Shown piece after piece: positions 15,493 to 63,400 of a stretch of 64,000 nt of DNA. The position numbers were made by a program, and so were the translations under genes. This DNA is from Apteryx mantelli. Its lineage: Eukaryota; Chordata; Aves; Apterygiformes; Apterygidae. The stretch lies in contig NC_090015.1 in assembly GCF_036417845.1 (NCBI RefSeq), forward strand, positions 128,001 to 192,000, read 5' to 3'. Numbering within the stretch: the first letter of the stretch is position 1; each line of letters opens with the position of its first letter. The notes under the pieces are model-generated. The model worked only from the letters and a program-made list of their open reading frames with translations. It was not told the DNA's origin and searched no databases.

Positions 15493-18400
15493 GTGAGTCG
15501 GGGCGCTTCGGGGCCGTTCGGGGCGCTTTGGGGTCCTTCCTGACAGGAAAAACTTGCGCCAAGGTGGCCGAGCGCGTGGGGGGGGCCGGGGGGACATTTT
15601 GGGGCGATTCAGGGCAATTCGGGGTAGTTTTGGGTTACTCTTGATAGTCAAAAGCTGCACCAAGATGGTCAAGCACGTGAGTCAGGGCGCTTCGGGGCCG
15701 TTTGGGCCATTTGGGGTCCTTGCTGACAGGAAAAACTTGCGCCGAGATGGCTGAGCGCGTGTGTGGGGGCAGGGTGACATTTTGGGGCGATTTGGGGCAA
15801 TTCGGGGCAGTTTTGGGTCATTCTCGATTGACCATCTTGGTGCAGGTTTTGACTAACAGGTGAGTCGGGGCGCTTCGGGGCCGTTCGGGGCACTTTTGGG
15901 TCCTTCCTGAGAGGAAAAACTTGCGCCGAGATGGCTGAGCACGCGAGTGGGGCCGGGGGGATGTTTTGGGGTGATTTGGGGCATTTCGGGGCAGTTTTGG
16001 GGCATTTCGGGGCAGTTTTGGATCATTTTCGATAGTCTAAACCTGCGCCAAGATAGTCAAGCACGTGAGTCGGGGCGCTTTGGGGTCGTTTGGGGCGCTT
16101 TGGGGTCCTTCCTGACAGGAAAAACTTGCACCGAGATGGCCGAGTGCACGTGTGGGGACAGGGCGGCATTTTGGGGTGATTCAGGGTGGTTTTGGGTCAC
16201 TCTCAATAGTCTAAACCTGCACCGAGATGGTCAAGCACGTGAGTCGGGGCGCTTCGGGGCCGTTCGGGGCGCTTTGGGGTCCTTCCTGAGAGGAAAAACT
16301 TGCGCCGAGATGGCCGAGCGCGCGAGTGGGGACAGGGCGACATTTTGGGGCGATTCGGGGTGGTTTTGGGTCATTCTCGATAGTCAAAACCTGCACCAAG
16401 ATGGCCGAGCGCGTGAGTGGGGGCATTTTGGGACGCTTTTGGGTCTTTCCTGACAGGAAAAACTTGCGCCGAGATGGCCGAACGCGCGTGTGGGGCCAGG
16501 GGGACGTTTTGGGGCGATTTGGGGCAGTTTTGGGTCACTCTTGATAGTCAAAACCTGCACCAAGATGGTCAAGCACGTGAGTCAGGGCGCTTCGGGGCCG
16601 TTCGGGGCGATTTGGGGTCCTTCCTGAGAGGAAAAACTTGCGCCGAGATGGCCGAACGCGTGTGTGGGGCTGGGGGGACGTTTCGGGGTAATTTGGGGCA
16701 GTTTTGGGTCATTCTCGATAGTCTAAACCTGCGCCAAGATAGTCAAGCACACGAGTCGGGGCGCTTCGGGGCCGTTTGGGGCAATTTGGGGTGCTTTGGG
16801 GTCCTTCTTGACAGAAAAAACTTGCGCCGAGATGGCCGAGCACGTGTGTGGGGGCAGAGCGACATTTTGGGGCGATTCGGGGCAGTTTTGGGTCATTCTC
16901 AGTAGTCCAAACCTGCACTAAGATGGTCAAGCACGTGAGTCGGGGCGCTTCGAGGCCGTTTGGGGCGCTTTTGGGTCCTTCCTGACAGGAAAAACTTGCG
17001 CTGAGATGGCTGAGCACGCGTGTGGGGCCAGGGGGACGTTTTGGGGTGATTTGGGGCAATTCGGGGTAGTTTTGGGTCACTCTCAATAGTCTAAACCTGT
17101 GCCAAGATGGTCAAACACATGAGTCGGGGCGCTTTGGGGCTGTTCGGGGCGCTTTGGGGCGCTTTTGGGTCTTTCCTGACAGGAAAAACTTGCGCCAAGA
17201 TGGCCAGGTGCGTGTGTGGGGCCAGGGGGACGTTTTGGGGCGATTTGGGGCAGTTTTGGGTCACTCTCGATGGTCACAACCTGCACCAAGAGGGTCAAGC
17301 ACGTGAGTCGGGGCGCTTTGGGACGCTTTTGGGTCTTTCCTGACAGGAAAAAATTGCGCTGAGATGGCCGAACGCGCGAGTGGGGGCAGGGCGACATTTT
17401 GGGGCAATTCAGGGTGGTTTTGGGTCCTCCCTGGCAGGCAAAACTTGCGCCAAGATGGTCAAGCACGTGAGTGGGGGATAAGGGGACGTTTTGGGGCAAT
17501 TTGGAGCAGTTTTGGGTCTTTCCTGACCCAAAAAACTTGCTCCAAGATGGCCGAGCGCGTGTGTGTGGGGCTGGGGGGACGTTTTGGGGTGATTCGGGGC
17601 GGTTTTGGGTCCTTGAGACTCATGCCGAGGTTGCCGAGCAGGCCAAGCACGGGAGTCGGGGCAGTTTGGGGTGATTTGGGGCCATTTTGGGTCCTTCCTC
17701 CCTCATAGCTGAGCGGGGTGGCGGGGGGAGAGGTGGAAGATCAGTATTTTGGGGTGAATCGGGGCAGGTTTGGGTCCATCTCGCCCTTGAAGTGAGACTT
17801 GAGTGGCCCAAACCCGTGGGCGCCATTTTGGGACAAATCGGGGTGGTTTTGGGTCCCTTCTCTCGAGCAGCTGGGGGGGGTGGCAGGGCAGCATTTCGGG
17901 GCGAATCAGGGTGGTTTTGGGTCCCTCCTCATTTCAGGGCGATGCGGGCGCCATTTTGGGGTGCTTCCGCCTCCCTTCTTCCTCGCGGCCGAGGGGGCAT
18001 CACCAGAGGGGGGCTGGGGTGGGTGGAGGAACAGCGTTTTGGGGCAGATTGGGGTGGTTTTGGGTCCTTTCTCTCTAGCAGCTGAGTGGGATGGTGGTGG
18101 GGGGGTGAAGGGGCAGCATTTTGGGGTGAATCGGGGCAGATTCGGGTCCCTCTTGCCCTTGGGGCGAGACCCGAGCGGCCCAAGCCCAAGAGCACCTCAG
18201 TGGGCACCATTTTGGGGCGAACCAGGGTGGTTTTGGGTCCTTTTCCCTCACAGCTGGGGGGGCATCAGCAGGGAGGGGTCGAGGGGGTGGCGGGGCAGCG
18301 TTTTGGGGCGAATCGGGGCAGATTCGGGTCCCTCCCACCCTTAGGAAGAGACCCAAGTGGTCTGAGCCCAGAAACGCCTCAGCGGGCGCCATTTTGGGGC

Positions 18401-60400: not shown

Positions 60401-63400
60401 ACGTCCCCGGGCGCTGAGCCGGGCCGAGGACCCCAGGGACGTCACGGTGTCCCCAACGTCCCCGATGTCCCCAACGTCCCCGGGCGCTGAGCCGGGCCGA
60501 GGACCCCAGGGACGTCACGGTGTCCCCGATGTCCCTGACATCCTTGACGTCCCCGTGTCCCTGGATGCTGAGCTGGGCTGAGGACCCCGAGGACAACCCT
60601 GCGTCCCCCTGTGTCCCCAACATCCCTGCGTCCCCCCCCATCCCTGATGTCCCCACGTCCCCAATGTCCCCTGATGCCCCTGTGTCCCTCCATGTCCCCG
60701 ACATCCCTGTGTCCCCAATGTCCCTGTGTCCCCTGACGCCGTGTCCCCCCAGGCGCTGTGCCAGGCTGAGGACCCCAAGGATGCCCCCGCGTCCCCCCAT
60801 GTCCCCAACATCCCCCCGTGTCCCTTGATGTCCCTGTGTCCCCCCATGTCCCCCTGTGTCCCCAATGTCCCTGTGTCCCCTCATGTCCCCATGTCCCTGC
60901 AGGCGCTGTGCCGGGCCGAGGACCCTGAGGACGCCCCTGCGTCCCCGATGTCCCCATGTCCCCCCATGTCCCCGTGTCCCCCTCCGTCCCCAATGTCCCT
61001 GTGTCCCTGACGTCCCTGTGTCCCTCCATGTCCCCGCGTCCCCTGACGTCTCCGATGTTCCCCTCCGTCCCTGATGTCCCCTGACGCCCCCCGCCGTGTC
61101 CCCGCAGGCGCTGTGCTGGGCCAAGGACCCCAAGGATGCCCCTGTGTCCCCAACGTCCCCGTGTCCCCCCATGTCCCCTGACACCCCCCGCCGTGTCCCC
61201 ACAGGCACCGTGCCGGGCCGAGGACACCCCTGTGTCCCTGATGTCCCCGTGTCCCCCCATGTCCCCTGACACCCCCCGCCGTGTCCCCACAGGTGCTGTG
61301 CCGGGCCGAGGACCCCGAGGACGCCCCTGTGTCCCCGTGTCCCCCCATGTCCCTGTGTCCCCCTCTGTCCCCGATGTCCCTGATGTCCCTGTGTCCCTGC
61401 AGGCGCTGTGCCGGGCCGAGGACCCCGAGGACGCCCCTGCGTCCCCGACGTCCCCGTGTCCCCCCATGTCCCTGCGTCCCCTGACGTCCCTGTGTCCCTG
61501 CAGGCGCCATGCCAGGCCGAGAACCCTGAGGACGCCCCTGTGTCCCCCCATGTCCCCGTGTCCCCCTCTGTCCCTGTGTCCCCTGATGCTGCCGTGTCCC
61601 CGCATCCCCCCATGTCCCCCTCCGTCCCCGATGTCCCCTGACGCCGCCGCCGTGTCCCCGCAGGCACCGTGCCGGGCCGAGGACCCCGAGGATGCCCCTG
61701 TGTCCCCCCATGTCCCCTGATGTCCCCATGTCCCCTGACGCTCCCGATGTCCCCTGATGTCCCAGTGTCCCCTGACGTCCCCGATGTCCCCTGACGCCGC
61801 CGTGTCCCCGCAGGCACCGTGCCGGGCCGAGGACCCCGAGGACGCCCCTGCGTCCCCCCGCGTCCCCCCCATGTTCCGGTGTCCTCCTCCATCCCCTGTG
61901 TCCCCTGACGTCCCCTGGTGTCCCCGCAGGCGCTGTGCCGGGCCGAGGACCCCGAGGACATCCGGGCGGCGACGCAGGCCAAGGCGGAGCAGGTGGCCGA
62001 GCTGGCCGAGTTCAACGAGAGCATCCCGCTGGAGGAGGAGCGGCCGCGCGACGACGACGACGAGCCCTCCAAGGCCGAGCAGGAGATCGCCTCCCTCGTC
62101 GAGCAGGTGGGCCCGGGCGGCCGGGAGGGGCCCAGGCGGCCGGGAGGGGCCCAGGCGGCCGGGAAGGGCCCAGGCGGCCGGGAGGGGCCCAGGCGTCCGG
62201 GAGGGGCCCAGGCGTCCGGGAGGGACCCAGGCGTCCGGGAGGGGCCCAGGTGTCTGGGAGGGACCCAGATGTCCGGGAGGGACCCAGGCATCCTGGAGGG
62301 GCCCAGGAGTCCGGGAGGGGCCCAGGAGTCTGGGAGGGGCCCAGATGTCCGGGAGGGGCCCAGGCGTCCGGGAGGGACCCAGGCGTCCGGGAGGGGCCCA
62401 GGCGTCCGGGAGGGGCCCAGGAGCCCGGGGAGGGGCCCAGGAGTCTGGGAGGGGCCCAGGCGTCCGGGAGGGACCCAGGCGTCCAGGAAGGGGCCCAGGC
62501 GTCCGGGAAGGGCCCAGGTGTCCAGGAGGGACCCAGGCGTCCAGGAGGGGCCCAGGAGTCCGGGAGGGGCCCAGGAGTCCGGGAAGGGCCCACGAGTCCA
62601 AGAGGGGCCCAGGCATCCGGAAGGGACCCAGGCATCCGGGGGGGGCCCAGGCGTCCAGGAAAGCACCCAGGCATCGGGGAAGGGCCCAGGCGTCCGGGAG
62701 GGCCCCAGCTGCCCATAGACTCACCCAACGCGTCCAGGCAAGGGGCCCAGGCGTCCGGGCGGGTGTCCGGGTGGGCAGCGGCAGGAGGGGGTGGGGGGGG
62801 GTGGCGGCGCCTCCGGGGTCCCCGTGGCGCGAGGGACCCAGGCGTCCGGGCCGCAGCTGACGCCCATCGAGCGCTACGCCATGAACTTCCTGGAGGCGTC
62901 GCTGGAGGACGTCAGCCGCGAGGAGCTCAAGCAGGCCGAGGTGGGCGCCGGGGGGGCACCCGGGGGGCACCCGGGGGGTGGGGGGCACCCGTGGGGTGGG
63001 GGTGCGCCCGGGGGGCACCCGAGGGTGTCCCTTATGGGGCAGGAGCACCCATAGGGACCTAGCTATGGGGTGGGAGCACCCATAGGGATCTAGTTATGGA
63101 TTAGGAGCACCCGTAGGGGTCCAGTTATGGGGCGGGAGCACCCATAGGAGACCCAGCTATGGGGCAGGAGCACCCATATGGGTCCAGTTATGGGATGGGA
63201 GCACCCATAGGGTCTAGTTATGGGGCGGGAACACCCATAGGACTCTGGTTAGGAGGTGGGAGCACCCATAGGGGCCCAGCTATGGGGCAAGATCACCCGT
63301 AGGTGCCTGGTTATGGGGTGGGAGCACCTGTAGGGGTCCAGTTATGGGGTGGGGGCACCCATGGGAGTCTGGTTAGGGGTTAGGAGCAACCATAGGGATC

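Follow-up and report, generated by a model that had tools for sequence, protein, structure and literature searches.

In a 64-kilobase (kb) window of the Apteryx mantelli genome (contig NC_090015.1, positions 128,001 to 192,000; all positions below are those of the window), the chromatin-remodeller gene SRCAP was found to carry copies of its own exon edges, including donor or acceptor splice sites, in the introns directly adjoining those exons. Forty-two such copies were counted in SRCAP (E3, 16; E26, 8; E27, 5; E21, 1; E31, 12), and six more degenerate ones in a neighbouring phosphatase gene. In this GC-rich gene, whose long introns consist almost wholly of minisatellite, the copies are very probably best explained by exon stuttering. 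An initial sequence-only reading of this DNA, which had recognized the pattern, knew of no name for it; exon stuttering has been named and described in genes on chicken dot chromosomes (Hron et al., 2026; PMC12954441).

SRCAP runs on the + strand from 15.4 kb to the end of the window, 77.5 percent of which was masked by Tandem Repeats Finder. Three spliced pieces of the gene matched human SRCAP with 1010, 553, and 358 bits; the runner-up was yeast SWR1 in two cases (465 and 283 bits, respectively, for the first and second pieces) and p400 in the third (183 bits). The exon model was rebuilt from reading frame and splice consensus and yielded the same exon numbering as the sequence-only reading; in it, the intron that follows E3 opens at position 15493 and the one that precedes E31 closes at 61929. 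It starts at E3 (E1 and E2 being left out) and ends with E33, which is truncated by the window end. The ends of E8, E19, E20, E22, and E23 are tentative, and E23-E25 was handled as a single intron because E24 was not resolved in the model. What we take to be the SRCAP-like reading frame shifts inside E21 (39909-40098), E25 (48456-48804), and E26 (49860-50063, where the frame was assigned for the start of the exon), with C-rich stretches at the shifts in E21 and E26. Perhaps these shifts represent base-level assembly errors or, in the case of E25, an overlooked small intron.

A BLAST screen in the published style (blastn-short, no dust filter, matches of at least 20 nucleotides (nt) and at least 42.1 bits) was applied to 32 introns. 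Nineteen of 36 plus-strand matches in the adjacent intron passed the cut, in four of the 32 introns (E20-E21, 1; E26-E27, 8; E27-E28, 5; E30-E31, 5), whereas none of 64 plus-strand matches in distal introns did so. No minus-strand match exceeded the cut (0/50; 0/4 proximal and 0/46 distal), thus indicating direct orientation. Ten shuffled controls, five with mononucleotide and five with dinucleotide shuffling, gave a top score of 34.2 bits. In 16 of the 19 passing matches (84 percent), the source sequence lay at most one base from the exon border; the other three sources, all from E31, were located 2 to 5 bases from it.

Smith-Waterman alignment of the 36 exon nt that border each of the 64 junctions of the 32 introns, scored as z values against shuffled introns and accompanied by 57 mid-exon controls, separated exactly five junctions from the remainder: the donors of E26 (z 23.4), E27 (z 20.5), and E3 (z 11.9) and the acceptors of E21 (z 15.7) and E31 (z 15.5). 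These are the junctions at which copies had been proposed from the sequence. The next values belonged to the P3 acceptor of the phosphatase gene (z 4.6) and the E11 donor (z 3.7). Introns E3-E4 and P2-P3 did not pass the 42.1-bit BLAST cut, and copies in these introns were identified by Smith-Waterman alignment and by listing of individual copies. The E3 copies are real despite their failure in the BLAST screen. Chance similarity in GC-rich sequence was ruled out as a cause by the BLAST screen, the Smith-Waterman z values, and the strand test. Source exons and copies are listed in Table 1.

Table 1. Exons that served as source, and copies of their edges, in the analysed window.
Feature	Position	Strand	Basis
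SRCAP exon E3 (from conserved ATG), source of donor-side copies; donor GTGAGT at 15493	15358..15492	+	exon model and human SRCAP protein match
Intron E3-E4 with 16 copies, at 15667 to 18575, of the end of E3 with its donor; GT kept in 10/15 junction-reaching copies	15493..19640	+	Smith-Waterman z 11.9, copy listing
Single copy of E21 acceptor with 39 nt of exon start (37/39 identical), located 136 nt upstream of the real site	39768..39811	+	BLAST, copy listing
SRCAP exon E21, source of single acceptor copy	39909..40098	+	exon model
SRCAP exon E26, source; donor GTACGT at 50064	49860..50063	+	exon model, BLAST screen
Eight copies of E26 last 41 to 65 nt with donor region	50143..51420	+	BLAST, copy listing
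SRCAP exon E27, source; donor GTGGGT at 54273	54103..54272	+	exon model
Five copies of E27 last 65 nt and about 60 nt of intron	54790..57629	+	BLAST, copy listing
Twelve upstream copies of E31 acceptor with 24 to 36 nt of exon start; AG kept in 9/12	60391..61843	+	copy listing
SRCAP exon E31, source; acceptor AG at 61928-61929	61930..62106	+	exon model
PPP4C-like intron P2-P3 with six degenerate copies of P3 acceptor and exon start; AG kept in 5/6	1852..2820	+	Smith-Waterman z 4.6, copy listing
PPP4C-like exon P3, source of degenerate acceptor copies	3096..3285	+	exon model, protein match

The arrays differed in how well the copied splice sites were preserved, as scored with a matrix built from the 32 donors and 32 acceptors of the window itself. 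Copies of the E27 edge were nearly perfect: their exon part was 98 to 100 percent identical to the source, GTGGGT was kept in all five, and these decoys matched the real donor in sequence as well as in score (10.4). The nine E31 decoys with intact AG scored 8.1 to 13.8, within a range of 1.6 to 16.9 for real acceptors. GT was retained in only two of the eight E26 copies, one of which scored weakly (-3.0), and the single E21 copy kept its AG (1/1) with a weak score of 0.8. In the E3 array, exon sequence extended furthest, over 33 and 32 nt, in the two most distal copies. The phrase 'a series of decoy exon ends', which had been used for this gene, is fair as a description of its sequence. Within the E27 array (54205-58748), exon parts of the units were 97 to 100 percent alike and their flanks 88 to 100 percent, while an inner minisatellite was 79 to 100 percent alike, with 100 percent only for the unit pair u2/u3; nested slippage may have caused the divergence of this inner minisatellite.

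Seams between exon and intron sequence were listed for the E26, E27, and E31 arrays, in each of which a tandem arrangement was found. One seam was common to all five E27 copies and another to all seven listed E26 copies (of eight), and eight of the 12 E31 decoys finished at the same exon point or at most one base from it. A single shared seam per array points to one founding duplication across the junction in each case, so that the E26, E27, and E31 arrays each probably descend from one junction-crossing duplication that was subsequently amplified as a unit. Because the exon edges of E3, E26, E27, and E31 match residues of human SRCAP, copying proceeded from exon to intron at these four junctions; the same match rules out the reverse, in which these exons were recruited from the arrays. 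Stronger conservation of exon parts than of intron parts, as would be expected from exon-templated conversion, was seen for E27 and E26 and not for E31 or E3, and such conversion is not claimed.

In the proposed mechanism, local duplications would arise with roughly arbitrary breakpoints. Where a breakpoint fell inside an exon, the duplicated block would take along the edge of that exon together with the splice site. Such a block would be tolerated, since the exon-proximal junction, which presumably continues to be used, would still splice and the copy would fall downstream of the donor or upstream of the acceptor, as a presumably neutral decoy. The block would then be amplified in tandem, probably via replication slippage, template switching, or unequal exchange. 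The proposal in the sequence-only reading that arrays start across exon-intron junctions and then spread agrees with the shared seams of E26, E27, and E31; as a general mode of array initiation it falls short, as exon-edge capture was seen in only six of 26 expanded introns.

The introns fell into two size classes, with six of 82 to 102 nt, 26 of at least 306 nt, and none between. Tandem repeats covered 0 to 1 percent of the six compact introns, as compared with a median fraction of 0.90 (lowest, 0.39) in the 26 long ones and 0.73 to 0.99 in the six introns with exon copies. The classes look as if compact introns had grown through repeat expansion. All six compact, repeat-free introns are located within 23416-59047. 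G-quadruplex cover was considered as a factor common to the introns with copies in SRCAP and rejected: it ranged from 0.03 to 0.66 (E27-E28, 0.03; E20-E21, 0.04; E3-E4, 0.20; E26-E27, 0.35; E30-E31, 0.66) and failed to sort them.

Three observations weigh against exon stuttering as outlined here. Firstly, the E21 case had been read as a single duplication, and one copy is indeed present; it is not a clean tandem, as it consists of a 44-nt match 136 nt apart, with scattered matches beyond and without a head-to-tail unit. Secondly, the spread of repeats was not entirely local. A minisatellite with core CCCAGGCGTCC is common to introns E25-E26, E29-E30, and E31-E32, the best pair of which scored 601 bits (80 percent over 677 nt) against a shuffled maximum of 45.5 bits, and 15 pairs among 33 compared regions showed matches of at least 55 bits. 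A 17-nt form of this core, GGGCCCAGGCGTCCGGG, occurred 21 times in forward orientation in introns E25-E26, E27-E28, E29-E30, and E31-E32 (from 48591 up to intron E31-E32 at 62107-62856), with three reversed occurrences in E25 and in intron E28-E29. This family common to non-adjacent introns contrasts with chicken stuttering, for which expansions were called strictly local (PMC12954441, in the sections examined). The family stems either from one array that gave rise to others across exons or from an ancestral motif that underwent expansion more than once. Separately, introns E26-E27 (from 51686) and E30-E31 (up to 61083) were observed to have repeats in common in opposite orientation, with 22 minus-strand matches (best, 124 bits) that are apparently of the GGGGAC/GTCCCC type.

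The third observation is that junction capture was rarer than expected from randomly placed breakpoints, and it speaks against the simple random form of the mechanism. A local repeat included the intron sequence adjoining the splice site at 20 of the 52 flanks of junctions in expanded introns. Displacement was measured for 18 of these flanks, the E6-E7 acceptor and the E29-E30 donor having been dropped for want of an alignment. The repeat reached at least 20 nt into the exon in five of the 18 junction-reaching arrays, against 13.3 expected with uniform breakpoints, and a founder model that assumed compact ancestral introns predicted capture in 18.2 of 25 introns against six observed; both models are rough, the nearest displacement does not equal the true founding length, and the founder model omits intron E9-E10, where every array fell short of the score applied. 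The deficit implies that selection or another bias also acts. Selection against disturbed exon edges would explain it.

The same counts bear on a first alternative, in which the junction itself is the preferred starting point of arrays, for example through R-loops coupled to splicing or through a donor motif prone to recombination. Five SRCAP junctions with captured edges, and the 20 of 52 expanded-intron flanks that lie within a local repeat, are what such a preference might be expected to leave behind. With capture below the random-breakpoint expectation in both models, crude as these are, a junction hot spot is unsupported and this alternative is improbable.

Likeness to the exon fell with distance from it in all five arrays tested (rho -0.30 to -0.42, none significant alone). 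A combined two-sided permutation test gave p 0.010 for identity (47 copies) and p 0.006 for the splice dinucleotide (46 copies), in an analysis that excluded the single E21 copy, was chosen post hoc, and used copies that are related rather than independent. These results are suggestive of stronger decay in copies distant from the exon. A tentative and rather doubtful extension is that arrays grow at their exon-proximal side, where the real exon edge would act as a permanent template for new copies with working splice sites, while older copies are pushed outward and decay. If this were true, exons would seed and continually renew decoys in their own introns. Tolerance of decoys may, on this reading, depend on an early stop upon their use. 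Of the five E26 decoys (of eight) whose use would keep the frame open over the stretch translated, four have lost GT; the fifth, at 50508, is intact, which argues against this idea.

A second alternative holds that the decoy splice sites are functional and act as a ladder of poison extensions for tuning the output of SRCAP. GT or AG was kept in 27 of 41 junction-reaching SRCAP copies, scores typical of real sites were obtained for the E27 decoys and for the nine E31 decoys with intact AG, and an early stop would follow from use of all 15 E3, all five E27, and 11 of 12 E31 decoys. The E26 decoys do not fit such a role, since most of them lack GT and five of the eight, if used, would keep the frame open over the stretch translated. 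Together with the suggestive decay of distal copies and the wide variation in length of such introns between chickens (PMC12954441, as far as the examined sections report), this makes a functional ladder very unlikely. Least credible of all is that the arrays are assembly artefacts: the window has a 200-N gap, and the apparent frame breaks in E21, E25, and E26 hint at base-level errors, but most copies carry substitutions relative to the exon, their seams are ordered, and a similar structure in chicken PHF8 was verified by raw nanopore reads (PMC12954441, examined sections).

Upstream of SRCAP, the final four exons of a phosphatase gene with matches to PP2A-type proteins lie on the + strand (1 to 7718); we take this gene to be PPP4C. 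Its intron P2-P3, in which a degenerate case of exon-edge copying had been suggested, contains six copies, spaced 144 to 299 nt, that exceeded the best of 200 shuffles. The z value at this junction was, however, topped by two of the 57 mid-exon controls (E19, 5.1; E23, 5.0), both from low-complexity exons, so that the PPP4C case is borderline by the Smith-Waterman test alone and the weakest of the set. The repeat-filled phosphatase intron P3-P4 includes the 200-N gap (5195-5394).

Exon stuttering, also termed sequence stuttering, has been reported in chicken for 115 genes and 236 introns, 190 of which are on dot chromosomes (Hron et al., 2026; PMC12954441, here and below as represented by the examined sections). 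In chicken, the exon part has a median length of 36 base pairs (bp), 1 to 44 copies occur, copied donors or acceptors are included, and the source lies at most one base from the exon border in more than 90 percent of cases; PHF8 is the case backed by nanopore reads. Replication stress or meiotic conversion were put forward as possible causes, explicitly as speculation (PMC12954441). The kiwi SRCAP arrays resemble the chicken ones in that partial exon copies reach up to the border with a donor or acceptor, stand in tandem, and occupy the adjacent intron of a GC-rich, repeat-filled gene, which presumably is likewise on an avian dot chromosome. In the literature collection searched, 'exon stuttering' had PMC12954441 as its sole match; SRCAP does not occur in the main text of that paper, the 115-gene list of which is in the supplement. 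Relative to the examined sections, a single seam shared by most copies in each of three arrays, capture at junctions that is rarer than expected, a suggested decay with distance, and a repeat family across introns are new at this locus.

A boundary-crossing repeat at a single locus has been known for longer. The unit of a 31-bp variable number tandem repeat in human CBS, c.1444_1467+7(16_21), by its notation crosses an exon end, as the SRCAP copies do, and reaches 7 bases into the intron, and its 16 to 21 copies vary among people (PMC2630376, from partial consultation). It is a single regular unit in one gene, unlike the gene-wide recurrence in SRCAP. A second CBS variant, c.844_845ins68, is a 68-bp duplication that includes an acceptor and resembles the single E21 copy. 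In contrast to the SRCAP arrays, it is one polymorphic insertion, without an array (PMC2630376). In potato RdRp, a tandem duplication over an intron-exon boundary likewise carried splice signals along, as described in the consulted part of PMC4974935; there a new intron was made, whereas existing introns enlarge in SRCAP.

SRCAP, a large chromatin-remodeller gene, thus provides a further example of a phenomenon that was named only in early 2026. With a similar criterion, four of 32 introns scored here against 190 of 5,572 annotated dot-chromosome introns in chicken (PMC12954441, examined sections), a comparison that is unfair because the window was chosen for the pattern seen in it. With nine intact decoy acceptors before E31 and five near-perfect decoy donors behind E27, the gene offers a setting in which to ask how the spliceosome bypasses decoys.

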